IMG/VR virus record: IMGVR_UViG_3300035180_002574
Location: 62,001 to 126,000 of that record
DNA from: a virus
DNA: 64,000 nt
Reading direction: 5' to 3' (one strand)
Positions 1-22,437 of the stretch are shown piece by piece. The number at the start of each line of letters is the position of its first letter. The stretch's first letter is position 1. The notes under the pieces were generated by a model, which saw nothing but the letters and a program-made list of their open reading frames with translations, made no database searches and was not told the origin of the DNA. The position numbers and the translations under genes are program-made.

Positions 1-1413
1 TTTACCGGCATCTTTTATAATACTGCTAAGGTATTCATGATTTTTCTCTTTAGCAAAAGAGAAAATAGGGAAAGCACCTCGTTCTTTTGCCATAATACAA
101 GAAGATGTATGAGCTCCAACAGCTAATGCACGATAGATTTCGCCAGTCTTACTTATAGATTCTTCTGATCCATATTTGATATTCAATGCTGCTAAAGCAT
201 CTCCTAAAGCAGTAATACCTAAACCAGTGCGGCGCCCGCTGACATTCATGGCACGAATTTTATTCCACAAATTCAACTCAACCGCCTTCACCTCTTCTGG
301 CTCTTTGTCGGCTTTAACTTTAGCAATGATCTTATCAATAGATTCAATTTCTAAATCAATAACATCATCCATTAATCTTTGAGCAATAATTGTGTGTTCT
401 TTGAACAGTTCAAAATCAAAATATGCATCTTTGGTAAATGGATTTTTGACGTATGATAATAAATTCAATACTAATAGGCGGCACGCGTCATATGCTGGTA
501 GAATAATTTCTCCACAAGGATTAGTAGATACTGAGTTGTGACCTTCCTCAGCATAAATATCTGAAGGAGTATTCTTTTTAACATTGTCCCAAAATAAAAG
601 ACCTGGCTCTGCTGCAGACCAAGCAGCATCTATTATCATATCCCAAATTTCTTTAGCCTTTACTGTCTTTACAACTTTCGCTTCTTCTAAAGATAAATGA
701 GCTGGCCAGCGCAAAGTATATTCGGAATCATTTTTAACCGCCATCATAAATTCATCAGTTAATCTGATTGAAATATTGGCACCAGTTACTTTGGTGAGAT
801 CGCGTTTGATCTTAATAAACGTTTCGATCTCTGGATGATTTACAGAGATCGTTATCATTTCAGCGCCACGGCGCCCATTTTGGGCAACCTCTCTACAGGT
901 ATTGCTAAATCTTTCCATGAACACAGCAATGCCGTCGGTGGTTTTTGCAGCGTTATTAGTGATAACGTTTTTAGGACGAATACCGGAAATATCTAATCCA
1001 CAACCGCCGCGACGCTTCATAATTTGAGCAAGTTCTTGATCTGCAAGCATAATTCCGCCATAAGAATCAAACTCATCAGAATGAACTCCTTGAATTACGA
1101 AGCAATTGGAGAGGCTTTGCAATTGATATGGATTACCAATTGCAGACATAGGGCTGCCTTGTGGAACTATATATTGAAAGTTTTTAATCAAACCAAATAT
1201 CTTCGATTCCGTAAGTGGATTCGGATATTTCTTTTCAATACGTGCAAATTCTTTTGCGAGACGATGATGCATATCATCAGGTGTTAACTCTAAGAAAACT
1301 CCCTGTTGATTTTGTAGCGCATACTTATCTACGAAAACTTTCGCAGCAAACTCATCTCCACCAAAATACTTTGTCGATGCCTCTAAAACCTGAGAATAAG
1401 TGTATCCCTTCAT
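1..1413 (-). CDS. nrdJ: Class II (adenosylcobalamin-dependent) ribonucleotide reductase, 3' end cut by window edge
   Basis: This enzyme reduces ribonucleotides to deoxyribonucleotides for phage DNA synthesis. I translated 471 residues from an ATG at 1413; the frame is open to base 1, so the C-terminus lies outside. Visible landmarks are SNCFV (Cys104, candidate first active-site cysteine), a long conserved core from KRRGGCGLDIS (133-143) through GRRGAEM (180-186), and NPCGE (298-302), whose Cys300 is the expected thiyl-radical cysteine. Runs such as AQRLMDD and GRRTGLGITALGD are typical of B12-dependent rather than class I enzymes. No NrdB-like radical subunit is seen nearby, which fits class II. 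An in-frame ATG just upstream (1424) runs into a stop, so 1413 is the only sensible start. The ribosome binding site (GGTGA) is weak. The gene follows the sigma-factor gene by 43 bases. Confidence 0.9.
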   Translation of the reverse strand, partial: MKGYTYSQVLEASTKYFGGDEFAAKVFVDKYALQNQQGVFLELTPDDMHHRLAKEFARIEKKYPNPLTESKIFGLIKNFQYIVPQGSPMSAIGNPYQLQSLSNCFVIQGVHSDEFDSYGGIMLADQELAQIMKRRGGCGLDISGIRPKNVITNNAAKTTDGIAVFMERFSNTCREVAQNGRRGAEMITISVNHPEIETFIKIKRDLTKVTGANISIRLTDEFMMAVKNDSEYTLRWPAHLSLEEAKVVKTVKAKEIWDMIIDAAWSAAEPGLLFWDNVKKNTPSDIYAEEGHNSVSTNPCGEIILPAYDACRLLVLNLLSYVKNPFTKDAYFDFELFKEHTIIAQRLMDDVIDLEIESIDKIIAKVKADKEPEEVKAVELNLWNKIRAMNVSGRRTGLGITALGDALAALNIKYGSEESISKTGEIYRALAVGAHTSSCIMAKERGAFPIFSFAKEKNHEYLSSIIKDAGK

Positions 1414-1456: not shown

Positions 1457-2086
1457 TTATATTTTAATGTGATCTTTCATTAATGAAAGGGCACTATTAA
1501 TAACCTTCACGCAATGAGGTCTCGATATGTTTAGCTTCTTACAGATTTTGTTTATGGACATCGGTTTGTCACCATCAAACCCATAAGCTAATTCAATAAT
1601 TTCTTTCTGCTCATCAGAAAGTAAAGCAGTTACGTTTTGTATTGCCGCATTAACTTGCACATCTTCCAATTCGAGATCAGGGCAATGCCTCTCCTCAATC
1701 AAAGTGGGCATAACTGCTTCTTTATGTGGAGCGTTATTTTTTGCCACTTTTAATGGATATCTAATTGTTGTATGTAAATTGGCACTTCTAGAGATTCTCG
1801 TATCAATATACTTGTGAGCCCACCAGAAGAAAGACCCCTTCTTTGGGTTGTAGTTTGCCATAGCCTTAATAAGGGCTTCAAAGCCCTCTTGATTCAAGTC
1901 GTCATAGTTAGAGAAGGCTTTATAACGACCAGTCTTCATACTTACTAGGTATTTGAATTTTTCAATGCACAACTGTTCGTGTTTCTTTAATTCAAGCGCA
2001 ATTTTGTCGTTGCATTTTTTCTTATTGAAATCTCTCAATTCAATAAGTTTAATCATTAATTCTTGTGCTTCTTGTTCTGTTAACAT
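1457..2086 (-). CDS. Phage-encoded sigma-70-family RNA polymerase sigma factor
   Basis: This is a predicted small sigma factor that would redirect host RNA polymerase to phage promoters. The 209-residue protein has a region-2-like block at about 62-102 (YDDLNQEGFEALIKA, then a FFWWAHKYIDTRI segment, matching the core-binding and -10-binding helices). It has a region-4-like helix-turn-helix at about 156-205 (LSDEQKEIIELAYGF, then SINKICKKLNISRPHCVKV). Regions 1 and 3 are reduced, as in ECF-like and phage late sigma factors. The start ATG at 2086 is preceded by AGAGGAAAG. It sits between a zinc-ribbon group and the ribonucleotide reductase gene. Which promoters it serves cannot be told; late structural genes are a reasonable inference by analogy with T4 gp55. 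Confidence 0.85.
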   Translation of the reverse strand: MLTEQEAQELMIKLIELRDFNKKKCNDKIALELKKHEQLCIEKFKYLVSMKTGRYKAFSNYDDLNQEGFEALIKAMANYNPKKGSFFWWAHKYIDTRISRSANLHTTIRYPLKVAKNNAPHKEAVMPTLIEERHCPDLELEDVQVNAAIQNVTALLSDEQKEIIELAYGFDGDKPMSINKICKKLNISRPHCVKVINSALSLMKDHIKI

Positions 2087-2153: not shown

Positions 2154-2309
2154 TTACTTGTTTATCTCTTCTTCAAGGAGTTCAATCACCGATTCAATGG
2201 TTGATTTAGTAATCTCTGGGTCATCAAGAGACAAGATAAATTTTAGAAGCCCCACAACTTTCTGGAGCTTCTGATTGCGTTCGCTTTGTTTGCTGGCTTT
2301 CTTCGCCAT
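2154..2309 (-). CDS. Small hypothetical protein (51 aa), translationally coupled to the FmdB-like gene
   Basis: I do not recognise this protein. The frame runs from an ATG at 2309 to a TAA at 2154. It begins MAKKASKQSERNQK, then continues with a helical, acidic stretch ending LLEEEINK. Its ATG shares one base with the TAA of the upstream zinc-ribbon gene (TAATG), a common coupled arrangement in this genome. The residue pattern (basic start, amphipathic helix, acidic end) looks like real coding sequence. It fills most of the space between the sigma-factor gene and the zinc ribbon, leaving a 67-base leader for the sigma gene. Confidence 0.6.
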   Translation of the reverse strand: MAKKASKQSERNQKLQKVVGLLKFILSLDDPEITKSTIESVIELLEEEINK

Positions 2310-2500
2310 TACGAATATCCCTCACGAGCCCAACCGCCGCCAGTTAATATAAAAGCCCCATTAGATGCAATCAATCTGGTTACTTTTTTTGGCACCAAAC
2401 CCTCTTCCTTGCATTTTGGACATTCTTCTAATTGTTCTGACATAGAGTGAATTTCTTCAAATTCGCCATGCAATTCACAATGATAAACATACGTCGGCAT
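2309..2500 (-). CDS. FmdB-type small zinc-ribbon protein
   Basis: This 63-residue protein has the layout of the FmdB/CxxC_CxxC_SSSS putative regulatory family. It starts MPTYVYHCELHGEFEE, then has a CPKC pair (27-30) and the family's basic-hydrophobic block KKVTRLIAS, ending in a GGGW turn. The first zinc half-site is CxxH (C8, H11) rather than the usual CxxC. FmdB proteins are small predicted zinc-binding proteins of uncertain role, and none is assigned here. The ATG at 2500 follows GAGGAAAA, a strong ribosome binding site. A second related protein lies directly upstream at 2573-2881. Confidence 0.75.
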   Translation of the reverse strand: MPTYVYHCELHGEFEEIHSMSEQLEECPKCKEEGLVPKKVTRLIASNGAFILTGGGWAREGYS

Positions 2501-2534
2501 TTTTCCTCAAATAAGGTAGCAATATCCACTGTTT

Positions 2535-2562
2535 AAGATAATTACGAAACTTTGTGTGTCAA
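2535..2562 (-). promoter_or_regulatory. Candidate sigma-70-type promoter
   Basis: In the 72-base gap upstream of the FmdB-like gene, the minus strand reads TTGACA (2562-2557), a 16-base spacer, then TATCTT (2540-2535). The -35 is a perfect consensus and the -10 matches at four of six positions. It would drive the zinc-ribbon, small gene, sigma factor and possibly the reductase. No transcription start was measured. Confidence 0.4.
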
Positions 2563-2572
2563 TGATGGATTA

Positions 2573-2881
2573 TTATCTTTTTTTTCTACGATCCATACGC
2601 GTCTGTAAATCGTGATAACGAGACTCTCCTAACATATTAGCATACACCTTGTCAGATTTTTGCATATCCTTTTTTAATTGCTGAGTGTCTGATTTAACCT
2701 TATCAATGAGTTCCTGTCCGGTTAACTCTACTGTACCGGGAGTAGCACAACTAATTAATCTTTTCACTTCTGTGTCATTGCCGTCCTCTTTGCATTTTGG
2801 ACAATGAGTTAAAACAGTAGTAATTGAATGTACTTCTTCAAACTCACCGTGGACTGGACATAAATAATCATACGTTGGCAT
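2573..2881 (-). CDS. FmdB-like zinc-ribbon protein with helical C-terminal extension
   Basis: The first ~60 residues are clearly related to the neighbouring 63-residue zinc ribbon: MPTYDYLCPVHGEFEE, CPKC at 28-31, then VKRLISCATPG. The extra ~40 C-terminal residues are charged and probably helical (VKSDTQQLKKDMQK onward), ending in RRKKR. The first metal half-site is again CxxH. The ATG at 2881 overlaps the TAA of the upstream gene (TAATG) and has AGGAG ahead of it. The pair looks like a tandem duplication followed by divergence. Function unknown; a zinc-stabilised protein-binding or nucleic-acid-binding role is only inference. Confidence 0.7.
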   Translation of the reverse strand: MPTYDYLCPVHGEFEEVHSITTVLTHCPKCKEDGNDTEVKRLISCATPGTVELTGQELIDKVKSDTQQLKKDMQKSDKVYANMLGESRYHDLQTRMDRRKKR

Positions 2882-3676: not shown

Positions 3677-5086
3677 TTATACGTCTAATAATTCAATCTT
3701 CTGAGAAATATCATCCGGGTCTCTCATGGTAAATTCTGTCTGATCTTCTTCAACACTATTATCTAGTAAAGTTCCACACGCTAGATTCTTAATCAGGGTT
3801 CCCTTAACCAATTCACCATCACGATTCTTAATAAGATGATAAATCATGTCGGGATAATTCTTCTCATTTGGTCTGGTTTCAATTTGAATTGCAATATTTG
3901 CATTCTGTAAAATCAACGCTGAACGACCCACTCGATGCATGCCAATTCTATCTTCTGGTTCTTTGCTTTTGGCTCGGTTTAACTGAACCGCACTCAATAC
4001 CGTGCAATTGTGTACACGAGAAAATTCGTGCATCTTTTCAGAAATTTTGCCCAGTTTTAACCAGTCGTCCATGTCTCCCGTACCCTCATAGTCCATAAGA
4101 CCTAGATAGTCAATAACTACAACTTTAGGATCGTAGACCGACTTGACATCCTCATAGATCATCTCTAAGCTCTCCATGGTTGCCCCACGAGGAATATCTA
4201 CGATCTCAAACTGACTTGGATATCTATTAATAAACTTCAATGCTTTTTTTAACTTAAGAGCATCATCGTTATTCAGCTTAGCATTTCTAATCAATTTAGA
4301 TGGTGTGGAAGATAATCTTGCGAGCACACGATTTAAACAGGGTTTAAAAGGCATTTCCAAAGAGAAATATAGTACGTTCTCGCCCGGCGTAAAACCTTCT
4401 TCCATATCTATATTGTTTTGTTGAAGCCACATCTGAACAGCCATATTCATCAATAACATAGATTTACCAGAAGAAGACTCTCCGCCTATTAGAAGAAGTT
4501 CTCCGGGTCTCAAACCGTCCGTTGCGTTATCAAGAACTGAATATCTGGTTTGGATTCCTCGGTCGAAGGTTGGATTTTCCATCTTCGCATTGTATTCTTC
4601 TCGAAATTGAGGAATGGCGTCCTTCAAAGTTTTACGTTCAAATGTCTTTTTCTGACTTAAGCTTTTGATGCTTTGAACTGTACGATTGATATCGTTAAGC
4701 GTCTTACCAATATCGGCTCCTACCGGGTCAACTTTATTTAAGGAGTCTTTCATCTGAGACAATTGTCTCTCGGCGAAGCGCCTCTTAAACTTTTCTAGAT
4801 CATATTTATATTCTTTGTCATTATAGTTATGGGCTTCAAGCGCTTCCCATACTTTTTTAACATGTTCAATAAGCTTATCATTGCCGCCCTTAGATAACTT
4901 ATCGGAGATAACTCTAAGGGTTGGGAGTTCCTTATAGGTTTTTACATAGCCCACAATAAGTTTAGCAGCATTCCAAACTTCTGGAGAAAACAACCTATCA
5001 TCATACTCGTTGACAAACTCCACAGAATGTTTTTTGTTGCTGATAATTGTTTTAAGAATTGATAGGTCTAGCTCGTTAAAACTCAT
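3677..5086 (-). CDS. dnaB: DnaB-type replicative DNA helicase
   Basis: This is a predicted hexameric replicative helicase that unwinds DNA at the phage fork. It is 469 residues long, the usual size for DnaB-like phage helicases. The N-terminal ~150 residues are helical (protein-interaction domain and linker). The RecA-like motor follows, with Walker A GGESSSGKS at 201-209, Walker B VVVIDYLGL at 322-330 and motif H4 LSAVQLNRA at 364-372. FSLEMP (241-246), the H1a catalytic-glutamate region, is also present. The start overlaps the end of the upstream gene by four bases. The helicase loader lies two genes upstream, which supports the assignment. Confidence 0.92.
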   Translation of the reverse strand: MSFNELDLSILKTIISNKKHSVEFVNEYDDRLFSPEVWNAAKLIVGYVKTYKELPTLRVISDKLSKGGNDKLIEHVKKVWEALEAHNYNDKEYKYDLEKFKRRFAERQLSQMKDSLNKVDPVGADIGKTLNDINRTVQSIKSLSQKKTFERKTLKDAIPQFREEYNAKMENPTFDRGIQTRYSVLDNATDGLRPGELLLIGGESSSGKSMLLMNMAVQMWLQQNNIDMEEGFTPGENVLYFSLEMPFKPCLNRVLARLSSTPSKLIRNAKLNNDDALKLKKALKFINRYPSQFEIVDIPRGATMESLEMIYEDVKSVYDPKVVVIDYLGLMDYEGTGDMDDWLKLGKISEKMHEFSRVHNCTVLSAVQLNRAKSKEPEDRIGMHRVGRSALILQNANIAIQIETRPNEKNYPDMIYHLIKNRDGELVKGTLIKNLACGTLLDNSVEEDQTEFTMRDPDDISQKIELLDV

Positions 5087-5467: not shown

Positions 5468-6172
5468 TTACGCCTTCTTCTTTCTAAAATCTTCTCCAAG
5501 AACCGGGAATATCTTTAAGTAACCGCGCATTAAACTGTCTACACTTGCCTTGAGAGGTCCATTGAAACTCTCGACAACATTTGGGCTGTTGGTACACATT
5601 AAAGTTGGGAGTTTGTTCTGGCTCCGAGTTCTAAAAACACTCTCCAAACTTCGGGCATACAAATCTGCCGCATTTTCTGATGGCATGAATCTTGGGTCAA
5701 ATTCATCAATAACCAAAAAATCTACCATCGCCAATTCTCTTTTGGCTAAGTATTTATCTTCACCATACCCACCCGTCATTACACTAACAATATCGCTTAA
5801 AGAAGTATAAAGGCAAGTAAATCCTTTTTGGCAAGCCTTCTTGAGAATGCAAGTAACCGTCATAGTTTTACCTAAACCATGACCTCCCGCAAAGCAAATA
5901 GAAGATCCTGTCACATATGATTGTTTAAGATCCGCAATATACTCTTTATACTTAGCCATAAGTCTTGGGTCTCCTTGAAAATCTTTTTCCATTTTCAAAG
6001 TCCAATATTCAAATGGAATATTGCTTTCAGCATATCTGTTCGCCGCAATTAGTTTATAATGTTTGGCTTCTTGTGTATCCTCGCTCCCCTCAATTGTAGA
6101 AATAAAATCCTGCAACTTTCTAGTTGGAATATTATTTAGTGCTCGGCTTCTTGAAAAGTCCCGGATATCCAT
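5468..6172 (-). CDS. DnaC/IstB-type AAA+ ATPase, probable helicase loader
   Basis: This 234-residue AAA+ ATPase has the size and layout of DnaC-type loaders, which place the replicative helicase on DNA. Walker A is GGHGLGKT at 96-103, Walker B is FLVIDEFD at 152-159, and a sensor-like TLMCTN follows near 200. The ~90-residue N-terminal part would contact the helicase. The ATG at 6172 follows AAAGG and overlaps the previous gene by 41 bases. The neighbouring dnaB-type gene makes the loader role likely, though IstB-like transposition helpers share the fold; no transposase is nearby. Confidence 0.85.
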   Translation of the reverse strand: MDIRDFSRSRALNNIPTRKLQDFISTIEGSEDTQEAKHYKLIAANRYAESNIPFEYWTLKMEKDFQGDPRLMAKYKEYIADLKQSYVTGSSICFAGGHGLGKTMTVTCILKKACQKGFTCLYTSLSDIVSVMTGGYGEDKYLAKRELAMVDFLVIDEFDPRFMPSENAADLYARSLESVFRTRSQNKLPTLMCTNSPNVVESFNGPLKASVDSLMRGYLKIFPVLGEDFRKKKA

Positions 6173-6560
6173 ATTCTACCTTTCTTACGTCTCCGACCTC
6201 ATGGCTACGAAGTCTGTTAACTATATCTTCCCGTTCTCGCCTATTCAATTCCTGACGAAGCTCGGCTAACATTTTAATTCGATCGGGAGCATCACTGGGC
6301 AAATCAAACGTTTCTTCAATTTCGCTTTTGACTATCGGCTGAGGGCGGGGAACGCTTTTCTTCTCTTTAAGAATCTCTTGTCCGCTGAAAAATACTTTAA
6401 TAACAGAAATTTCTTCGGAAGGTCTTAAAATGATAACTTTACCTTTTTCATCTTTTCTTGAAAGAGTTAATCCAGAGCTATCAAGCTCCTCAACCACTCC
6501 AGATATTACCCAGCCATTCTTTAGCAGGCACTCAACATATTGCCCCTTTTCTATTTTCAT
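6132..6560 (-). CDS. Hypothetical protein with an Sm-like (LSm/Hfq-type) N-terminal fold
   Basis: The first ~55 residues (start MKIEKGQYVECLLKNG) have the alternating beta pattern of Sm-like proteins. A KNGWVISGVVEELD strand-turn-strand is followed by a GLTLSR strand and a final IRP-to-VIKV strand. The remainder is proline- and charge-rich with a helical segment near 95-125 (MLAELRQELNRREREDI). This is an unaided fold guess, not a database hit. The ATG at 6560 follows AGAGGA and overlaps the upstream TGA. The 3' end overlaps the helicase-loader start by 41 bases, an unusually long overlap here, suggesting coupled expression with the loader. Confidence 0.65.
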   Translation of the reverse strand: MKIEKGQYVECLLKNGWVISGVVEELDSSGLTLSRKDEKGKVIILRPSEEISVIKVFFSGQEILKEKKSVPRPQPIVKSEIEETFDLPSDAPDRIKMLAELRQELNRREREDIVNRLRSHEVGDVRKVEYGYPGLFKKPSTK

Positions 6561-7162
6561 ACAATCCTCTCCAGGACTTCTTTATCAAAACCTTCTTGTT
6601 CTGCTTTCCGAAAAGCTTCATTTAATGCTTCTGGCATATCGCTCATTTGTGACAGGAATGCTAGTTCGCCATAATTAGTAATGGTGACTCCAGCTTGTTG
6701 AAAAATAATTTTATATTTATCTGGCAACGGAGTTGATCTATCTACATTTAGATTCTTCTTGCCTTTTAATAGGACATTAATCTTATAGTCGTTTACTACT
6801 CCCTCGACCGTCATGAATGAAATTGAGGTTAATCTTCTTTTCGCCTTAATCACTTTGTTTTCATAAATCCATTCAATGTATTCTTTTAATATTTTAGGAT
6901 TAGCTGATAACATGGATGCCAGCTTTTTTATTTGAAAAACCTCAAATGATTTTGTTGGGGAAGGATTATTGAACTTGAATTGATACTTAACATTATATGT
7001 GTCATAGTATTTTTTACAAAAATATCCTAACAAGTGTGCAGGTCCCCATTTTTCAATTTCTAAAAAATTTATTTCTTCAAACTTATCAAAAAATTTTTTA
7101 TATTTTTCATTAGGCAAATCTGTTAATTTGCCACCCACATTATCATCTTTATTTTTAATCAT
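6557..7162 (-). CDS. Hypothetical protein (201 aa) in the replication cluster
   Basis: I do not recognise this protein. It is 201 residues, mostly helical and lysine-rich, without a signal peptide, membrane segment or obvious catalytic motif. A conserved-looking patch is EKWGPAHLLGYF (about 37-48), followed by an aromatic- and lysine-rich segment to about residue 75. Placement directly upstream of the Sm-like protein and helicase loader, with an ATGA overlap, suggests a role in DNA replication or recombination. A single-strand-binding accessory or initiator role would be pure inference. Confidence 0.6.
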   Translation of the reverse strand: MIKNKDDNVGGKLTDLPNEKYKKFFDKFEEINFLEIEKWGPAHLLGYFCKKYYDTYNVKYQFKFNNPSPTKSFEVFQIKKLASMLSANPKILKEYIEWIYENKVIKAKRRLTSISFMTVEGVVNDYKINVLLKGKKNLNVDRSTPLPDKYKIIFQQAGVTITNYGELAFLSQMSDMPEALNEAFRKAEQEGFDKEVLERIV

Positions 7163-7994: not shown

Positions 7995-9494
7995 TTACTT
8001 TTTTCTCCACTTAACTGATGATGGAAGTTTCACATCAAATCCGTCTTCAGAACTATAGATTTTATATCTAGTTTTAGAGTGCTCTAGCAAGAATGGAGCC
8101 TGATCTATAAAATCAACTACGACAGCATTTTTCTTTGATTCATATTTTCTAATAACTCTTCCAACTCTCTGCAATGCTTTTACGGTAGATTTTCCGCCAC
8201 AAGCAATTACTAATCCAGATAAGCTTGGGATATCTACTCCAATATCAAAAATTCTAGATGCTAATATGCAATCTATTTTATGGTCTAATAGGTCTTTCTT
8301 AACTTTTTCTCGTTCATCTTTATCATTTTTACCATCAAGGATGGCGCACTTCATATGTTGTTTAAAAGTATCGTATAAAATCTTTCCGTGTTTTAAGCTA
8401 TTGAATAGGACCAAGGTTTGATAACCTTTGTCAACCATAGTTTTGGCAGCATCTAAAACTAATCCATTACGTACATCATTCTCAACCACATACTTCTTGT
8501 ATATGGATGGATACGATTTTTCTAATTCATATGGATATGGTGGAACGACTCTGAACCTAATTAGAGGTTGAGCTAAAAATCCGCCTTTGATTAGGCGAGA
8601 TGCGGAAATGTTAACAATATATTTTCCCAAAATGGCTTCTATAAGAAGATCCGCGCCATCATCTCTCCAAGGGCTTCCGCTTAGTCCATATAAATGTTCG
8701 GCAGATGAATGTTTGAATATTTGTTGAATAGTTTCACAGGCAGACATGTGGCATTCATCAATGATGTGAACTTTAGCTTCCCTCATCATCTTATTAATGT
8801 CAGTGTATTTGTTCTTGTTTAATGATTCTTCGTCATCATCTCCATCTAATAGAATGGATTTCTTATCCATACCAATGGCTTGACCTATTGTCCAAATGCT
8901 AGCTATGTTGATATCATGTATCTCACATTTACCATCACCTATAATACCAATAGGCTCATCAAAAATTTCAGAAAAAAATTGATGAAACTGATACAATAAA
9001 TCCTTGCCAATAACATAAATAATTGTCTTTTTCCCAAATTTTGCGGCAATTAATGCCGCAATTAGTGACTTGCCTCCACCCGTAGCTACTTTAATAATTC
9101 CTCGATCATTTTTGTCAACCGCGTCTAAAGTTTCTAATTGGTAGGGGTACGGAGATTTGTTTAGCTTTTCTAATTTGGGCAATATATCTTTTGGATTTCC
9201 CGTAGATTTGGGGGATCTTTTATCTATAATTTCAAACTCTTTTCCTGCATCAGAATAAAATTCTTTTACCCTATCTAATAGTCCGGTAGCAAATTGGAGG
9301 GTTGGGGTAAGCAATTTTTTCATCCCATCCCATTTAACAAACTCTCCATCTCTATTAAAAAACCCCCTGTAAGCAGCGGTGTGTTCCGCTCCTTGAACTT
9401 TGAAGGAAAGATGTTTATCGAGCGCCAGGATATGATCTAAATCAGATTCTTCTGTAATTTGGCAATTGTTATTTCTAATCGTTATTTTTGTCAT
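7995..9494 (-). CDS. UvsW-like superfamily 2 DNA helicase
   Basis: This is a predicted ATP-dependent DNA helicase of the UvsW/XPB-like SF2 group, likely acting in recombination-dependent replication and fork remodelling. In 499 residues it has an N-terminal ~115-residue accessory domain, motif I ATGGGKS (137-143), motif II DECH (246-249) and motif III LSGSP (271-275). C-terminal motifs V (SRIFDIGVDIP) and VI (QRVGRVIRKYE) follow. Length is close to T4 UvsW. The ATG at 9494 lacks a clear ribosome binding site and follows a strong inverted repeat (9503-9542), so its expression may be controlled at the RNA level. Confidence 0.88.
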   Translation of the reverse strand: MTKITIRNNNCQITEESDLDHILALDKHLSFKVQGAEHTAAYRGFFNRDGEFVKWDGMKKLLTPTLQFATGLLDRVKEFYSDAGKEFEIIDKRSPKSTGNPKDILPKLEKLNKSPYPYQLETLDAVDKNDRGIIKVATGGGKSLIAALIAAKFGKKTIIYVIGKDLLYQFHQFFSEIFDEPIGIIGDGKCEIHDINIASIWTIGQAIGMDKKSILLDGDDDEESLNKNKYTDINKMMREAKVHIIDECHMSACETIQQIFKHSSAEHLYGLSGSPWRDDGADLLIEAILGKYIVNISASRLIKGGFLAQPLIRFRVVPPYPYELEKSYPSIYKKYVVENDVRNGLVLDAAKTMVDKGYQTLVLFNSLKHGKILYDTFKQHMKCAILDGKNDKDEREKVKKDLLDHKIDCILASRIFDIGVDIPSLSGLVIACGGKSTVKALQRVGRVIRKYESKKNAVVVDFIDQAPFLLEHSKTRYKIYSSEDGFDVKLPSSVKWRKK

Positions 9495-9565: not shown

Positions 9566-10279
9566 TTATGGCTGGGCGACAATCGATGCAATTGCGCTTG
9601 CTAAAGCGTTATCCTGACCCGAATGTAGGTTAAGAATCAATGTAGTAAGATCATTAGAAGAGCCTCTAAATACGTTATGATCCACAACACACTTGATGCC
9701 CGGAACATGATATAAAGATCCGCCTGGGGCAGCAACGTCTCCGGACTTTTGCCAAATTAACCAACCGCTTCCTTTCCAAATGGTTGGAACAAAATTATCA
9801 GGATTAGTTACATATCCTGCCAGCCATAAAGGATACTTTTGTAATGTGGCGGTTACGGTGGGATCTACCTTACCAGCATATTGATTAAAGAAAGGTCCTC
9901 CCGTGTAAACGAAAGGAATCTTTCCAGACCTATTCTCTACCGTTTGTAACCAGGTCAAAACCCACTTAACAAATACCGCTCCAGAAAGAGTTGATTGCTC
10001 AATGTCTAAGGCTAAGAAATCAAATGGAGTTAATTGCCCTACCATATCTAAAAAGAAGTTGGCTTCTTTAACTGGGTCGTTTTGAGTTAATCCATAATGA
10101 TATGTCCCGCGAATTAGTCCGGCATCTTTAATGCCGTTCCAATTATTATGAAACTGAGAGTCAACAATATTCAATCCTTGCGTAGCTTTTGCCGCCGCAA
10201 AACTAACTTGATTAGAAGCAGCCACTGCCTTCCAATCTACTAACCCTTGTGGATATGCAACATCAATCCCATCAATCAT
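9566..10279 (-). CDS. GH25 (Chalaropsis-type) lysozyme, probable endolysin
   Basis: This is a predicted muramidase that cleaves peptidoglycan at lysis. The protein begins MIDGIDVAYPQG, the usual GH25 opening, and carries the catalytic DxE as LALDIEQS (Asp92, Glu94), with Asp6 and a YTGGPFF strand also matching the family. I chose the ATG at 10279 (237 residues), preceded by GAGGA; the TTG at 10303 would add eight basic residues not typical of the family. The GH25 domain fills about 205 residues and leaves a short tail without a recognisable wall-binding repeat. No signal peptide, so a holin would be needed for export. It could alternatively be virion-associated, but it is far from the tail genes. 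Confidence 0.88.
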   Translation of the reverse strand: MIDGIDVAYPQGLVDWKAVAASNQVSFAAAKATQGLNIVDSQFHNNWNGIKDAGLIRGTYHYGLTQNDPVKEANFFLDMVGQLTPFDFLALDIEQSTLSGAVFVKWVLTWLQTVENRSGKIPFVYTGGPFFNQYAGKVDPTVTATLQKYPLWLAGYVTNPDNFVPTIWKGSGWLIWQKSGDVAAPGGSLYHVPGIKCVVDHNVFRGSSNDLTTLILNLHSGQDNALASAIASIVAQP

Positions 10280-10344
10280 GCTTCCTCGTCTTCTTTGAAC
10301 CAAAAACTTTGTATGTCAGAGATTTTAAAATAATGGAGTTTTGC

Positions 10345-10495: not shown

Positions 10496-10900
10496 TTACT
10501 TATAGTTTATTTTACACCTGCGATTAATGCCTTCTGGTTTTTGATCGTTAGATGATTTGAATGCCCATGTTTTGCCACGGCTTCTCAAACATTTAGGACA
10601 TAAGGTAATGCACATTTCATCAGAGAAATATTCGCCATCTGATTTTTCATTTTTATGAAAGCGCACGTTTGTTGAATATATTCTCTGCCTGGTTCTAAAA
10701 ATGTTATTACCCGGAATAGATGACATCATAGATGATGATGCGAAAGATCTAATTCTACGGCGCCGCGGCGCCATTTTGTATGTCCAGAAAAACATTCGAG
10801 TGATCGTGGATCCAGATAATTGTATCTTAGATCCGCATAACGGACACCTAGATTTTGCACCAAAAGTTGAAGATAATGTTATTTCTGTTTTACTTGTCAT
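10496..10900 (-). CDS. Hypothetical zinc-ribbon-like basic protein
   Basis: I do not recognise the family. Two cysteine pairs frame the 134-residue protein: CPLC at 19-22 and CPKC at 101-104, a plausible single zinc site. Between them is a very basic stretch, MAPRRRRIRSF, followed by serine-rich sequence. That suggests nucleic-acid binding, as inference only. The ATG overlaps the stop of the tubulin-like gene in an ATGA arrangement, so the two are likely co-translated. The codons for APRRR create an unusual GC-only palindrome (10759-10772). Confidence 0.6.
   Translation of the reverse strand: MTSKTEITLSSTFGAKSRCPLCGSKIQLSGSTITRMFFWTYKMAPRRRRIRSFASSSMMSSIPGNNIFRTRQRIYSTNVRFHKNEKSDGEYFSDEMCITLCPKCLRSRGKTWAFKSSNDQKPEGINRRCKINYK
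10759..10772. repeat. 14-base GC-only perfect palindrome
   Basis: GGCGCCGCGGCGCC reads the same on both strands and stands out in an AT-rich genome. It lies inside the zinc-ribbon-like gene and encodes part of its basic patch, so codon content may explain it. Confidence 0.7.
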
Positions 10901-12261
10901 TTTCTACGATCCACGACTCCACTTACCAATTTACCAAACGATGAGGACTTGGCTGCAATTTTTTCTTTAATCTTCTGTGCTGCAGATACCGTTTCATTGG
11001 TGCCCGTATCAATCTGAAGATTGAGATTTCTCTGCTCATCTTTACCCTTAACGGCTTGCATGTGCTCATGAGCATCTTTTTTTAACTGAGTTACTCGTGA
11101 TTCGGGCAATCCCAAACCAGTGAACAATGAATAAACCTTAACAACAGGATCAGGAATATCTATCGTATAGATTCCTTTAAAAACTCCTTTTGGAGTACCG
11201 CACTGATCATTGATCATAGCTAACGCATATGTAATACTAGAACTTGGAATTTTTGACCAAACTTCTTTATTTGCCGCGATAATGACACCAACATATTTGG
11301 ACTGCTTAAGATCAAAACCGCCAGCCAACAAGTTCCCATTTAGATTATTAACGACAGCCTCAGCAATGGCTGTGTCCTCTGCATAATTATCTACGGTTAA
11401 TTCTCCGTAAACTGTCAAGCCCTCGCCGTCGGTAAATAACTTACCCCATTCCATAGGATCTAATCCTTTGACAGATGATGGCATAGAGGACAATGTATTG
11501 AAAGAATCAATTGGATCAACAATTGCCTTATTAGCAATCCCATAAAATTCTACCTGGCTTACATTAGCATAAATAGCTTCAATCTTAGCATTGTCTACGA
11601 CAATAAGATTGTTAACCTTTTTTGTCTGAGTTAACTTAGCTAGCTTAGATAATGTTTCAAGAGCATTTGCTTTGGTTTGGGCGTCTTCCGTATCCATTGG
11701 AAGAACCGTGATAACAACCAATGGTTTGCCTTGCTCAGCAAGAAGGTCAACCAAAGTCTCACAAGATCCGGCTCCAGAGCCGCCTCCCAAGCTAAGACAA
11801 AGAACATTTACTTGTGCATTTGATAGCTTATCATTAACTAATTGTGCAATTTCTCCACGATGAGCTTCGGCAGCAGCTTTACCAATTTCAATTTCTTTGG
11901 CGGCGCCTCCCAAACCATATTCTAATAATAATTTGTTTGAATCTGGGACATCAATAAACTTCAAATCCTGCATAGCGGTATTGATGACTATCGAATCATA
12001 ACCTAACTTATAGAAGGTTTCTGCGATACGTGATCCAGCCTGACCAGACCCAACGACACCTAATGCTAGACTTCTTTCCTTCTTTGTTACGATTTTAGCT
12101 GACATATTGTTCTCCTGCTGTTTCGCCTGACTTTTTGCTTTTAATGCGGCAAGTTTGCTCAAATCAATTGAGTCTTCTGATTTTTTTACTTCTGAATTGG
12201 AAACATCATCCACTAATTCTTCTTTTGATTGATTTTCTTCTGTTACTGACGTTGCACCCAT
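10897..12261 (-). CDS. Phage tubulin/FtsZ-family GTPase
   Basis: This is a predicted filament-forming GTPase. Of 454 residues, the first ~64 are a charged extension. The tubulin/FtsZ nucleotide-binding fold follows: T1 loop GSGQAGSRI (71-79), the signature T4 loop GGGSGAGS (159-166), a T5-like region around PMDTEDA (188-194), and a T6/H7 region around residues 228-241. LDPMEW (257-262) could supply the T7 catalytic acids (Asp258, Glu261). The C-terminal tail is basic and helical, ending DRRK. Phage tubulins (PhuZ, TubZ) position replicating DNA or the phage nucleus in the host cell; that role here is inference. The start follows AGGAG. On the minus strand TATAAATA lies ~26 bases upstream, but that 8-mer is common here. 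No TubR-like partner or centromere repeat is seen nearby. Confidence 0.85.
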   Translation of the reverse strand: MGATSVTEENQSKEELVDDVSNSEVKKSEDSIDLSKLAALKAKSQAKQQENNMSAKIVTKKERSLALGVVGSGQAGSRIAETFYKLGYDSIVINTAMQDLKFIDVPDSNKLLLEYGLGGAAKEIEIGKAAAEAHRGEIAQLVNDKLSNAQVNVLCLSLGGGSGAGSCETLVDLLAEQGKPLVVITVLPMDTEDAQTKANALETLSKLAKLTQTKKVNNLIVVDNAKIEAIYANVSQVEFYGIANKAIVDPIDSFNTLSSMPSSVKGLDPMEWGKLFTDGEGLTVYGELTVDNYAEDTAIAEAVVNNLNGNLLAGGFDLKQSKYVGVIIAANKEVWSKIPSSSITYALAMINDQCGTPKGVFKGIYTIDIPDPVVKVYSLFTGLGLPESRVTQLKKDAHEHMQAVKGKDEQRNLNLQIDTGTNETVSAAQKIKEKIAAKSSSFGKLVSGVVDRRK

Positions 12262-12299
12262 TAAATTCTCCTAAATAAAAATTTTCTATTTATAATATA

Positions 12300-13259
12300 T
12301 CACTTTAAAAACCATTGATTTGCTAAATACCACGAAATACATTGCTCAATTCCATCTTTAAACTTATACTTTGGTTCCCACCCTAAAGATTTAATCTTTG
12401 AAGAATTGATACTATATCTGAAATCATGCCCCGGTCTATCTTTGACAAATTCAATTAAATCATGTCCTTTGCCCATTACATTACAGATCTTTTGAACAAC
12501 CTCTATATTTGTATATTCTTGATTTGCCGTAATATTATATGTTTGATTGTCTTCGCCTTTATTAAGGACCTCCAATATGCCGGAGCAATTATCAAATACA
12601 TGTGTCCAATCTCTAATCTGTAGCCCCTGACCGTAGATAGGTATCTTTTGATCGTTTAAAATGCATTTTATAATCTTGGGGATGAACTTCTCCATTGTTT
12701 GCCTTGGTCCATAATTATTGGATGACCTAGTAATGTTATAAGTTAGTCCATAACTTTGATGAGCTGCCTTTACCAATAATTCTCCGGCTGCTTTGGATGC
12801 CGAATAAGGATTTCTAGGATTAAGTGCGGACTCCTCAGACCAAGGAGGATCAGATTCCTTGGTTAATTGACCATATACTTCATCTGTAGATATGTAGATC
12901 AATCTCTCGACATTATGTTTAATGCAGGAATTGATTATTGTTTGCGTTCCTAGCACATTGGATGTGATAAATGAGTTCGGCTCTTGAAGGGAAGAGTCTA
13001 CAAAAGTTTCCGCCGCCCCATGAATAACAATGTTAGGTTGCTCAAATTTGAAAATCGTATCAATAATATGTTGATCTCGGATATCTGCCACATAGAATAT
13101 ATGACTTTTGTTTATGTAGAGAGAGTTTTTGAACTTAGGGTCCACCCTATCCACACTGACGAATTGGTATGGTTGTTTTTCATAAATAGCTTTTCTAATG
13201 AAATTTCCAAAAATAAAACCACAAGTGCCAGTTATTAAAACTTTCTTATTCATTATCAT
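12300..13259 (-). CDS. rmlB: dTDP-glucose 4,6-dehydratase-like SDR enzyme
   Basis: This predicted NAD-dependent sugar-nucleotide dehydratase would make activated 6-deoxysugar precursors for the neighbouring glycosyltransferases. The Rossmann start is VLITGTCGFIFGNF, where the third Gly of GxxGxxG is replaced by Phe. The RmlB-type active site is clear: STDEVYG, then the YSASKAA Tyr-x3-Lys pair. QIRDWTHVFDN and GHDFRY also match the family. At 319 residues it is slightly short for RmlB (about 330-360). I chose the ATG at 13259, overlapping the DUF1653 stop as ATGA; an ATG at 13253 is also possible. UDP-glucose epimerase-like relatives cannot be fully excluded, but the TDE motif favours a dehydratase. 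Confidence 0.8.
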   Translation of the reverse strand: MIMNKKVLITGTCGFIFGNFIRKAIYEKQPYQFVSVDRVDPKFKNSLYINKSHIFYVADIRDQHIIDTIFKFEQPNIVIHGAAETFVDSSLQEPNSFITSNVLGTQTIINSCIKHNVERLIYISTDEVYGQLTKESDPPWSEESALNPRNPYSASKAAGELLVKAAHQSYGLTYNITRSSNNYGPRQTMEKFIPKIIKCILNDQKIPIYGQGLQIRDWTHVFDNCSGILEVLNKGEDNQTYNITANQEYTNIEVVQKICNVMGKGHDLIEFVKDRPGHDFRYSINSSKIKSLGWEPKYKFKDGIEQCISWYLANQWFLK

Positions 13260-13526
13260 CCATTCAATGCATTCCAAAATGTGACTAAAATCTCTCTAGA
13301 CTCTTCTTCACTTATTTTTGAAAATCTAGGGATCTTGTTTCCGTCCAGTTCTACCTCATCTAAGAACATAGATGAGGGGCGCACCCAATAGGCGCATGCT
13401 CCCCAATTGTCATCCACATATAACGCCCTATACATGACCATGTTGTCAAGATTTTCTGAGTGTTTTTGCAATACCCAATACCATATATAAATTACCTGTA
13501 TAGTGGCGATAAACTCCTTGAGTCAT
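13256..13526 (-). pseudogene. DUF1653-family protein split by a single-base frameshift
   Basis: Two frames together make one complete DUF1653 protein. The ATG at 13526, with a good AAGGA site, opens MTQGVYRHYTGNLYMVLG followed by IAK. The second frame then carries HSENLDNMVMYRALY, YWVRPSSMFLDEVE and KIPRF, the family's hallmark run. The switch falls in a run of five A on the minus strand (13463-13467); removing one A gives a continuous 89-residue protein of normal family length. As written, the first frame stops soon after. This may be a real broken gene, a sequencing error in a homopolymer, or, less likely, programmed frameshifting. DUF1653 function is unknown. Confidence 0.75.
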
Positions 13527-18510: not shown

Positions 18511-21500
18511 TTAATTTGCGTAATGAACGGTTAGTCTTGCCATCTTACATACGGCGGTACTTGCCACATTTGCCGTGCTTAATATAACTTCATAAATATG
18601 ACCAGAAGTTAATTGTGAGTATAAATTAAGAGACTGAACAAATGTTGGGGAAGTATTTGTTGTGCTTAATATGGTGCTTGGACCGGCACTTAAATTCAAA
18701 TATGAGGCAGATGTAATATCATATAATTGTATTTGCGCCGCGTTAGCTCCCGTAGTCTCTAGGATAACTTCGAGAACAATAGAAGAAACTTGAGTATTAA
18801 TTATGTTGGATGTATCATAAATTAAAGCTCCAATTGTTGTTGGAACGGCAAATGATTCATTAAATACACCGGCAGCCCCGTAAATATATAATGGATTCTT
18901 ATATGTAAACGAAGAGTCTAACTTGCCAGAAGCATTCGTTTTAATAACTTTATCAGCGTCTGCAGCTCCAGTTGTATGATTTATTGCAAAGAAAATATCC
19001 GCAGCAAATTGATAACTTAAACTACTTCCATTGCTTGTTAATACAGTCCCAGTTGGTCCGACTTTATTTAATCCAGTTCCGCCATGAACAATAGGTAATA
19101 CCCCAGTAATATCTCCGCCCAAATCGACTAATGCGGATGGTCCGCCTACAGCCGCCCCACTAAATACGCTGATTAACTCTAGCATATTCTGTACTTTTGT
19201 AGAATCAACAAACAATGGTTGGTTGTTAAATCCGCCTTTTTTCAAGAAAATATTGATTTGTAATTTAGTACTTAATGTTGGGTGAACTGCGTCTTGGAAT
19301 AAATTAGTAAAATTAAGTGTTAGCAATCCGGTTGCATAATCAACGGATACTCCCATTTTCCCATCAACAATGGCGCCGTAATAACCATCAGGACTTAACC
19401 CATTTGTGTTTGGAGAAAATGACTGTACAGAAACTGAGAACCTGACCTGATCTTTTGCTAAAGCATCTGTTGTTACTAGTGAACAATCAGCAAATTTCAT
19501 TGCTGGGAAGCCAAGTTTAGTTAATCCGGTAAGTAAACCACTTCCATCTAATGTTGAAGCAATGAAATCTTCGACAACATTAAGTGTCTTTTCAGTTCCA
19601 TAAAAACCATCCGGGATTTCTAAGACTATTGTTCCAACCTCAAAGTCTACCTTGTAAAAAGATCCATCTTGTCTTTGAAGTTCGCCACCATCTCCTATTA
19701 TTAGATTATCTGGGATGTAATAATTTGTACGCCCCTTATCAAAAGCTGGCTTGGTGGGGTAAAAATTACATATAATACCATCTAAACTGCAAGAATTTTT
19801 TACAAATCCAGATGGAGAACTAAAAATGGATGGGACTAATTTTGGATTAGAGTTACTTACAACCAAATAATCATTCCATGATAATTGTTTTTCAATTAAA
19901 ATAGGAACAGGAGACGTATAAAAATCATGGCTTACAAAATATCCATCTGCCAAGAAGATGTCTGGACTGGTATGTAATCCAGCAGATCTGCCCGTACCAA
20001 GAGAAGTATAATCATCTACTCTGTCTATGAACTTCTCTAATGTAAATCTAACTACTTGAAACTTCGTGCCTATCTTAGTATATGGGTTCGTAGAAGGGGC
20101 GGGATATGTTGTGCCTGGTGAGCTAGAGAATGGAACTCTTTTTATGTACTCGTTTAATAAATAACCATCATTATACGTAATATGGAAATCGCCATCAATA
20201 TCGGCTCTCAACATTTGATTGAATGTCTCGCCATTTAGATAAACTTTTCTAAGAGTGATGACGCCAGAAAGCAGATCGCTAGAAATGATATCAAATCCAC
20301 CAAAATTTTCTACTGGAAGTGGAGTTAAGATAACTAACTTCAATGTACCAAGACCAATAATAGTGCTAAAATCTACTGAAGCACTGGTGAACTGACCTAA
20401 TCTTGGATTGTTTGGATTAGCAATTAAAATACCATCTGTGCCTTGAGCCCAAATAAGATTAGTAGCAGGATCTACGACCTGAAATCTGACAGAATAACTA
20501 TTAACAAATGGTTTTGTATAGGTAGAATATCCGTTAATAAAAGTAGTGGTACTATAACCGTCCGTAGTTACCGAACTATCAAGAGGCAGACCTTTATTTA
20601 AGTCATATCCAATATAAGTATTTAATAGATCAAGATCGGTCGTATCAATGATGCCGTCGCCATTAACATCACCAACAATCATAGAGCAAAGTCTAGCGTC
20701 CGCTATTCTATAAAAAACAGATATATTATTTGCATCTGGATAAATCTTAGCACCTACAAACTCGCCATTCAACAAATGAGAGGCAAGACTATTAACTGAT
20801 GTATCAAATCTTCCGACGTCTGTTGGGTCATCCACTAATCTAATGACCATTTCATTATCAACAATGGTGGCACTATATAATTTCGCCGTTATTTGAGCCG
20901 AAATTGAATCAAAAAACTTAATATTCTGATCTGAAATAGCCCCAATTAATAGTGGGTCTGAGGCTTTTTGAAGATTTGTAATATCAAGGGCGTTTAATAA
21001 AGATATCTGTGGCTCGGATTGTTTTATGGAATAAACATTTTCACCAGTGCGCTGATCTGGTATTAATCCGCTTTCTTGAGTAATTGCTGCAACTACGCCT
21101 CTAAAAACGTCGTTTCCATAGAATGATATGTTTCGAACACAATTGTCAATGTTGCTTTGAGTTGAAGTATCTTCAACTATCTTTGGAATAGTAACACCAA
21201 CTCCTGCGTCATAGGCTTGCCCGTCAGTTACCTTGGCGGCGTCTGTATAAATTCTAAACCATAAATCTTCATCTGGTAAATCTACCCACAGAGATCCTGT
21301 GAAAGTAGTTATTCTGGAATTAGATACTCTATCATTTCCAACCGCCAATAAGATATCACTTTTGTTAGCTGAACCAGAACGCTTAACACAAATAGCATAA
21401 TAATTACCAACTGTGAGACCACTCTTGCCAGCTATTGGACTATTACTAAATACAAAATCAATTGGCTGAGGAACAGAATCTAAAACTAATCCAGAAGATA

Positions 21501-22437
21501 GTAACGAGCTGTAATTTATGCTGGTTTGAGCGACTGGGACATTATTGGGCGCGAAATCTATTGGTAAGTTAGGTACTATATCGGTTGGACATTCAATATT
21601 CGATTGAAGAGGATATACGCTAACAATCAAATCACCATTCCAAACTAAATCAGAAGGATTATCCAGATTTCTAACTGAAAGAAGTAATGTTATTTTTTGT
21701 ATGTTATCAGTTGATGCTTGAAATTTTTGACCTATTTGAGTGGTGACATCTCCATTTAAAAGAACTTTATTATCTTTCTCCGCAGTAAAGATACTTAAAT
21801 TATCGATGTTGTAATATGGTAGGGCAGTTTTTAATAACGTTTGTAACGATGCGGTTCCACTAACAAAGAAGTCTCTAAAAAATAAATTTGGTTCAATATC
21901 TTGAGCCAACATCAAGGCGCTTCTGGACAATGTTATTGGCTTGGCTTCTTTGATAGTTATTTTTCCGCCAAGATTAAATGAAAGATCAGGATCGCCCAAC
22001 AAATCGTTAAATAACAAAACTAATATTTTGGTAAAATGTCTTGTACTTACCTGAATTTCATTTGTATGAAATACGAATGTTTCATATTGAAGATTAGATT
22101 GGAAATCAAGACCAATGATAGCTACCTTAATAGTCTTATTACCGGCAACATTAGATCCCGATAATTCAATTTCCAATTGATTTCCCAAATCATTATCGGC
22201 TGGCTGATTTTGCGCACTAATTGCAAGACCATCTAAAAATCCAGATACTAAAGTTGAATCAAATAAGACCGCTTGCTCTAAAACCTCTGGTAAAACACCA
22301 TTTCCTATATGATTATTAATGATGCCAGCCTGTATTGTATCATTATGTTGTTGCTCGACTGTAAGGTCAGTATCACTAACCTGTCTTCCATCAAACCAAA
22401 TGTTAGAGGGAGCGCTAACTGGGATGCGTTTAGTCAT
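18511..22437 (-). CDS. Large tail fibre or baseplate-fibre protein with two dockerin-like calcium loops
   Basis: This is a 1308-residue predicted virion protein. The N-terminus (MTKRIPVSAPSNIWFDG) is of a type seen at the attachment end of large fibres. At about 586-607, GDVNGDGIIDTTDLDLL is a textbook dockerin/EF-hand-like calcium loop. A second, ADIDGDFHITYND, lies near 740, with ~110 residues of beta-rich sequence between. The C-terminal third contains GDITGVLPIVHGGTG, a glycine-containing element common near fibre tips, followed by a beta-sandwich-like end. It overlaps the HNH gene by eight bases and precedes the glycosyltransferases. Adhesion is the probable role; the receptor is unknown. 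Confidence 0.75.
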   Translation of the reverse strand: MTKRIPVSAPSNIWFDGRQVSDTDLTVEQQHNDTIQAGIINNHIGNGVLPEVLEQAVLFDSTLVSGFLDGLAISAQNQPADNDLGNQLEIELSGSNVAGNKTIKVAIIGLDFQSNLQYETFVFHTNEIQVSTRHFTKILVLLFNDLLGDPDLSFNLGGKITIKEAKPITLSRSALMLAQDIEPNLFFRDFFVSGTASLQTLLKTALPYYNIDNLSIFTAEKDNKVLLNGDVTTQIGQKFQASTDNIQKITLLLSVRNLDNPSDLVWNGDLIVSVYPLQSNIECPTDIVPNLPIDFAPNNVPVAQTSINYSSLLSSGLVLDSVPQPIDFVFSNSPIAGKSGLTVGNYYAICVKRSGSANKSDILLAVGNDRVSNSRITTFTGSLWVDLPDEDLWFRIYTDAAKVTDGQAYDAGVGVTIPKIVEDTSTQSNIDNCVRNISFYGNDVFRGVVAAITQESGLIPDQRTGENVYSIKQSEPQISLLNALDITNLQKASDPLLIGAISDQNIKFFDSISAQITAKLYSATIVDNEMVIRLVDDPTDVGRFDTSVNSLASHLLNGEFVGAKIYPDANNISVFYRIADARLCSMIVGDVNGDGIIDTTDLDLLNTYIGYDLNKGLPLDSSVTTDGYSTTTFINGYSTYTKPFVNSYSVRFQVVDPATNLIWAQGTDGILIANPNNPRLGQFTSASVDFSTIIGLGTLKLVILTPLPVENFGGFDIISSDLLSGVITLRKVYLNGETFNQMLRADIDGDFHITYNDGYLLNEYIKRVPFSSSPGTTYPAPSTNPYTKIGTKFQVVRFTLEKFIDRVDDYTSLGTGRSAGLHTSPDIFLADGYFVSHDFYTSPVPILIEKQLSWNDYLVVSNSNPKLVPSIFSSPSGFVKNSCSLDGIICNFYPTKPAFDKGRTNYYIPDNLIIGDGGELQRQDGSFYKVDFEVGTIVLEIPDGFYGTEKTLNVVEDFIASTLDGSGLLTGLTKLGFPAMKFADCSLVTTDALAKDQVRFSVSVQSFSPNTNGLSPDGYYGAIVDGKMGVSVDYATGLLTLNFTNLFQDAVHPTLSTKLQINIFLKKGGFNNQPLFVDSTKVQNMLELISVFSGAAVGGPSALVDLGGDITGVLPIVHGGTGLNKVGPTGTVLTSNGSSLSYQFAADIFFAINHTTGAADADKVIKTNASGKLDSSFTYKNPLYIYGAAGVFNESFAVPTTIGALIYDTSNIINTQVSSIVLEVILETTGANAAQIQLYDITSASYLNLSAGPSTILSTTNTSPTFVQSLNLYSQLTSGHIYEVILSTANVASTAVCKMARLTVHYAN

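Follow-up and report, generated by a model that had tools for sequence, protein, structure and literature searches.

Tubulin homologues of phages have been studied in two settings, as PhuZ spindles serving a phage nucleus and as TubZ proteins that partition plasmid-like prophages. PhuZ of the Chimalliviridae (phiKZ gp39, 3zbp) is encoded by large myoviruses, occurs in only 66% of the chimallin phages and is dispensable, and msRNAP is encoded by all chimallin phages (PMC10299810). TubZ is represented by proteins of Bacillus plasmids (4ei7, 2xka) and of phage c-st (3v3t, 4xcq); the c-st protein partitions a plasmid prophage (PMC7950403), and the tail of TubZ binds partner proteins (PMC5322520). 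A putative FtsZ-like protein, gp138, is also encoded by the 497-kb Bacillus phage G.

The window analyzed in this work, a stretch of 64,000 nucleotides within a 181-kb virus record, includes a gene on the minus strand for which a sequence-only reading had proposed a divergent phage tubulin/FtsZ-superfamily GTPase (Table 1). Membership of this superfamily was borne out by Pfam, by sequence matches in the PDB and by the predicted fold. The 454-aa protein matched the Pfam Tubulin domain PF00091 with 61.9 bits (E 1.3e-16, cut-off 33) and therefore falls inside the superfamily, and the GTPase domain was matched by 32 out of 32 relatives. The best PDB sequence match was the TubZ/RepX protein of B. 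cereus (4ei7, 1.3e-13); FtsZ ranked next and PhuZ much lower. An AF2 model built from 32 homologues had medium confidence (pLDDT 72, pTM 0.70), with pLDDT values lower than 50 for residues 1-33, 44-60 and 407-454 and with the ends not modeled. In a Foldseek comparison of this model with the PDB, the best match was again the TubZ 4ei7 (E 1e-24, target-normalized TM 0.79), so TubZ was the nearest to the protein by both sequence and fold when compared with PhuZ and FtsZ. Bacterial FtsZ has the fold and motifs in common with it. In a viral structure library, the match to PhuZ was weak, and the model also matched UniProt A0A6J5RW92, an entry from an uncultured Caudovirales phage named 'FtsZ Cell division GTPase'; the structural alignment spanned the full length, with 76% identity. 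This entry, known here as a database name only, is a deposited member of the same tubulin family, and no study of it was found in the papers searched.

The GGGSGAGS signature and the LDxxE T7-like loop previously read in the 454-aa open reading frame are both present, and residues G159-S166, D268 and E271 were invariant in the 32 homologues. The T7 loop is the catalytic acidic loop in TubZ and FtsZ. Other invariant positions were G71, G73 and G76 (G1 loop), N94/T95, G118-G119 and D223/N224. All these GTP-site residues align with their TubZ counterparts and most of them also with FtsZ counterparts; because of this invariance and alignment, the sequence of the active site is judged to be intact. 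Neither the profile search nor the check for lost GTP-binding geometry refuted the superfamily assignment.

Both ends of the protein were also characterized. A good ribosome-binding site, AGGAG, lies 6 bases before the ATG, and the charged N-terminal extension is thus most likely part of the protein. This extension, described earlier as having about 64 residues, comprises about 63, with a net charge of -7 in residues 1-33 and +6 in residues 34-63. In the homologue alignment, the top-residue frequency was 0.58 for residues 1-33 versus 0.83 for residues 34-57, and the AF2 model predicts at low confidence a helix at residues 34-54. The C-terminal tail is basic, as had been noted (net charge +4 over residues 406-454), and its VVDRRK tip reached a top-residue frequency of 0.87, the level of the GTPase core, despite the predicted disorder. 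The last 14 residues, which end in VVDRRK, and residues 34-57 were about as conserved as the core; ends that are conserved yet predicted to be disordered suggest binding motifs.

The name 'divergent phage tubulin' stands as far as the superfamily is concerned, and it can be sharpened to a TubZ-type rather than a PhuZ-type protein by the PF22453 match and the separate clade. The TubZ-like C-terminal domain PF22453 was marginal in the window protein (26.2 bits, cut-off 26) and was found in 32 out of 32 close relatives at E<=1e-3; the two most distant homologues that were scanned (L185 and L059) matched the GTPase domain only. The PhuZ-type C-terminal domain PF22334 was matched by none of the 32 relatives; of the two PhuZ proteins scanned, that of phiKZ matched it and that of RAY was just sub-threshold. 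A Lysinibacillus TubZ matched PF21493. A tree of 44 proteins showed the window clade as monophyletic (98/99), PhuZ (100/100) and FtsZ (100/100) as separate and TubZ as scattered. Neither a grouping of the clade with PhuZ (p 0.36) nor one with FtsZ (p 0.26) was rejected by the AU test. On sequence grounds, the type is better decided by the C-terminal domain than by the tree, whose deep branching is AU-compatible with PhuZ or FtsZ, and the window protein is assigned to the TubZ type and not to the PhuZ type. With TubZ it has in common the GTPase domain, the TubZ-type C-terminal domain, the T7 acidic loop and an unstructured tail of about 50 residues. Unlike TubZ, the window clade has an additional conserved N-terminal extension, and its gene is fixed beside the replication block of huge phages, in which integrase matches are almost absent.

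More than 80 relatives were found in IMG/VR, with 45-100% identity and in contigs of up to 481 kb, and each of the 15 phage records searched contained exactly one Tubulin-domain gene. The number of homologues, together with the low dN/dS where it can be estimated, places this gene far beyond chance. As a guard against finding only what was sought, an independent marker search was carried out with the DnaC-like loader encoded a few genes downstream. Among the 76 newly fetched loci, the tubulin gene was located within the fetched flanks in 67 and elsewhere on the contig in 3, whereas 3 loci end at a contig edge and 3 are fragments of 24-88 kb without tubulin. Tubulin was therefore present in 70 of the 73 testable contigs, a count to be read in the light of a DnaC alignment itself built from tubulin-bearing loci and of some contigs being near-copies. 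It is a near-universal core gene of the clade, in contrast to the dispensable PhuZ of the chimallin phages. Identities between the window and the relative L003 were 87% for tubulin, 48% for DnaB, 49% for UvsW and 73% for DnaC, and those with L010 were 85%, 67%, 78% and 71%, respectively. The dN/dS of tubulin was 0.027-0.044 in three pairs with dS of 1.1-1.5, the remaining pairs being more saturated. The gene is under strong purifying selection, and its rate of evolution is lower than that of the DnaB of the same phage.

No study of the clade was found in a literature search that covered few subscription papers. A tblastn search of named phages with the window protein gave no match; the only named-phage match of this tubulin family, gp138 of phage G, arose with the homologue L059 as query (26%, 3e-9). 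For the portal of the window's phage, the closest match was phage G (34%, 9e-76), and the tail sheath matched only an Eggerthella phage and phage G, so that a distant kinship with phage G is likely from these sequences. The two tubulins need not be orthologous: they are 22-26% identical and not syntenic, gp138 has the wHTH-like gp137 (98 aa) directly upstream, and orthology was discarded because a joint clade with gp138 was rejected by the AU test (p 0.0013), with caution for the long branches. In phage G (L090:7692-9119), gp137 precedes gp138 as tubR precedes tubZ in plasmids, and gp137 weakly matched winged-helix-type regulators of replication and transcription. The only cellular match, a 16.6-kb contig in an Actinomycetota MAG bin, was discarded as an indication of the host, as it is possibly a phage contig and not usable alone.

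Among the IMG/VR relatives, including those whose tubulin is about 45% identical, the gene order around tubulin was largely kept: epimerase, tubulin, 0-6 variable small genes (often a GH25 lysozyme), UvsW helicase, 201-aa helical protein, small LSm-like protein, DnaC-like loader, DnaB, FmdB-like zinc ribbon, sigma factor and ribonucleotide reductase. The replication side of the locus is constant and the sugar side variable. A zinc-ribbon protein had been proposed as a partner of the tubulin; the ATGA overlap between the two genes is real, but this Cys-rich protein is absent beside tubulin in 48 of the 50 loci, and its sole other homologue in that position, in L028, is 29% identical. The 201-aa neighbor was likewise discarded as a DNA-binding adaptor, being all-helical and lacking a PDB fold match. 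Defence-system models and Rfam gave no match.

Table 1. Features of the tubulin locus, with positions in the window.
Feature	Position	Strand	Basis
TubZ-type (by domain match) tubulin/FtsZ-superfamily GTPase, 454 aa	10897..12261	-	Pfam PF00091 and PF22453; PDB sequence match and Foldseek match to 4ei7
AGGAG ribosome-binding site of the tubulin gene	12268..12272	-	Sequence upstream of the ATG
N-terminal extension, residues 1-63: acidic variable stretch, then conserved Lys/Ala helix KLAALKAKSQAK	12073..12261	-	Alignment and predicted helix
T4 signature GGGSGAGS, residues 159-166	11764..11787	-	Invariant in 32 homologues; aligns with FtsZ GGGTGTG
T7 loop LDPME, residues 267-271	11449..11463	-	D268 and E271 invariant; aligns with TubZ FDxxE and FtsZ VDFAD
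C-terminal tail, residues 406-454, conserved VVDRRK tip, predicted disordered	10900..11046	-	pLDDT <50 for 407-454
NAD-dependent sugar epimerase/dehydratase, usual upstream neighbor	12300..13277	-	Pfam Epimerase 9.3e-54; cluster in 48/50 loci
Cys-rich 134-aa protein overlapping the tubulin stop codon (ATGA)	10496..10900	-	One homologue in 50 neighborhoods
GH25 lysozyme, frequent insertion between tubulin and helicase	9566..10303	-	Pfam 2.3e-33; 24/50 loci
UvsW-like SF2 helicase, near-constant downstream neighbor of tubulin	7995..9494	-	Pfam ResIII and Helicase_C
Conserved all-helical 201-aa protein	6557..7162	-	AF2 pLDDT 88; no PDB fold match, best E 1.2
DnaC-like AAA+ helicase loader	5468..6172	-	PHROG phrog_50 3.6e-16
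DnaB-like replicative helicase	3677..5086	-	PHROG phrog_19 2.4e-58
Sigma-70-like factor of the conserved block	1457..2086	-	Pfam Sigma70_r2 2.6e-6; PHROG phrog_351 3.8e-16
Ribonucleotide reductase large subunit, cut by the window edge	1..1413	-	PHROG phrog_84 4.1e-67

Several additional observations were made in these neighborhoods. The 142-aa protein encoded at 6132-6560 (minus strand), LSm/Hfq-like by eye at its N-terminus, is the fastest-evolving gene product of the block, with 33-35% identity where tubulin is 85-87% identical. The open reading frame of the DnaC-like loader has about 590 aa instead of about 235 in L033/L034 (15553-17331) and L085/L086 (14362-16131), which suggests an intein or a domain insertion. 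Two small FmdB-like zinc-ribbon proteins are encoded near DnaB and the sigma factor (2309-2881, minus strand) and are duplicated in many relatives. In L026, the epimerase reading frame directly upstream of tubulin has 662 aa instead of about 320 and is perhaps a fusion. A 1308-aa protein (18511-22437, minus strand), whose cluster is present in 32 of the 50 loci, matched Dockerin type I with 22.9 bits, which is exactly the Pfam cut-off. One sublineage has a GT4-type glycosyltransferase joined in frame to tubulin in an open reading frame of about 800 aa with no stop between them (L089:8888-11290, L181:2694-5099, L179:3755-6229 and L190:1489-3894, minus strand). The glycosyltransferase parts are down to 46% identical to each other, so the in-frame joining is no recent error. 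The junction has a conserved in-frame ATG with AGGA upstream, and tubulin may therefore also be made alone in this sublineage.

Genes belonging to a nucleus or to a partition system were searched for in the clade. A PhuZ-like spindle serving a phage nucleus with a shell protein too diverged to be recognized would be in keeping with the huge myovirus genomes and with the PhuZ grouping that the AU test did not reject. Against this, the C-terminal domain of the clade is not the PhuZ one, and the chimallin profile phrog_4795, identified from phiKZ gp54, gave no match in phage G or in 26 clade records, several of them fragments, a negative that a diverged shell protein could produce by escaping a sequence profile, although the controls phiKZ, RAY, USC-1 and FLC9 were all positive and the divergent chimallivirus FLC9 reached 336 bits. 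The absence of a recognizable nucleus-shell gene, noted earlier for the window, thus held up in the 26 records. In addition, the msRNAP Rpb2 profile PF00562 had no match in 12 clade records, with a positive phiKZ control, and all chimallin phages encode this polymerase (PMC10299810). A spindle of this kind is consequently rather unlikely. It also seems unlikely that the protein is a partition motor of TubZ type, which would distribute the phage genome to the daughter cells while the phage persists as a carrier or plasmid prophage and would rely on an unrecognized adaptor and a centromere elsewhere, even though the C-terminal domain, the tail of about 50 residues and the best structural match are those of TubZ, and TubZ of phage c-st has such a role (PMC7950403). 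A gene for a protein of about 90-115 aa is located directly upstream, in the position of TubR, in five plasmid TubZ loci and at gp138, whereas in the window clade no TubR-like gene was found directly upstream of tubulin; in the window this place is taken by the epimerase, with a gap of only 38 bp, and the small genes that intervene in some loci are not conserved. No notable tandem array of the kind expected for tubC centromere iterons was detected within the window, and no TubR/centromere system was seen beside the gene, in agreement with the sequence-only reading. A small downstream gene (c17, 18 of 50 loci) was discarded as TubR, with a sub-threshold DUF6897 match and no HTH profile match. 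Integrase and ParA profiles were essentially absent, with tyrosine recombinases in none and serine recombinases in one of 16 clade records, and ParA in none of 13.

Many phages target FtsZ by other means, and a mimic or decoy that co-assembles with host FtsZ or blocks it, stopping division or reshaping the infected cell, would be consistent with the superfamily relation and with the 65.5 bits obtained against the FtsZ equivalog TIGR00065. This score is, however, far under the cut-off of 295.2 bits, the protein is outside the FtsZ clade, and its tail, ending in VVDRRK, does not have the FtsA/ZipA-binding C-terminal peptide D-I-P-x-F-L of FtsZ. Phage inhibitors of FtsZ are usually small, and a slowly evolving full GTPase would be a costly decoy, which makes this explanation quite improbable. 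Very improbable too is a filament or GTPase scaffold acting on virion or sugar-modification enzymes and not on DNA; the upstream epimerase and glycosyltransferase genes and the sublineage with the in-frame glycosyltransferase point to it, but the sugar-gene side is variable while the replication side is constant, and most relatives are not fused.

We give somewhat better than even weight to a TubZ-type cytomotive GTPase of huge, apparently lytic myoviruses without recognizable nucleus genes; during lytic growth, its filament would place phage DNA or replication factories, spread them or gather them in clusters. This explanation is based on superfamily membership, intact GTP-site motifs, the TubZ-type domain, the place beside the replication block, the near-universality, the purifying selection and the lack of chimallin and msRNAP matches. 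GTP would be bound between subunits, where each active site would be completed by the LDxxE T7 loop of the neighboring subunit, and the GTP cycle would drive filament assembly and turnover. The disordered conserved ends, the Lys/Ala N-terminal helix and the VVDRRK tail, would bind a cargo or adaptor. We infer polymerization, the nature of the cargo and cargo binding by the ends, the last by analogy with the partner-binding tail of TubZ. Adjacency to replication genes is no proof of a DNA-related role; sugar-modifying genes are located on the other side. Because nucleus genes were not found, the tubulin probably moves or anchors viral DNA in some way other than serving a phage nucleus. More tentatively, and with rather less than even confidence, this would be a third phage tubulin system, a core and probably essential filament that organizes DNA or replication factories with no nucleus and no TubR and takes its cargo through the N-terminal helix and the VVDRRK tail.

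What is new here is a phage tubulin of TubZ type by its domain that is outside both the TubRC and the nucleus contexts in which phage tubulins were studied. In this clade, whose phages reach about 480 kb, one such GTPase is kept almost everywhere and is more conserved than the replicative helicase, without recognizable nucleus or partition genes, which poses the question of why a lytic phage without a nucleus needs a cytoskeleton. The N-terminal helix and the DRRK tip offer conserved handles for fishing out the cargo adaptor.
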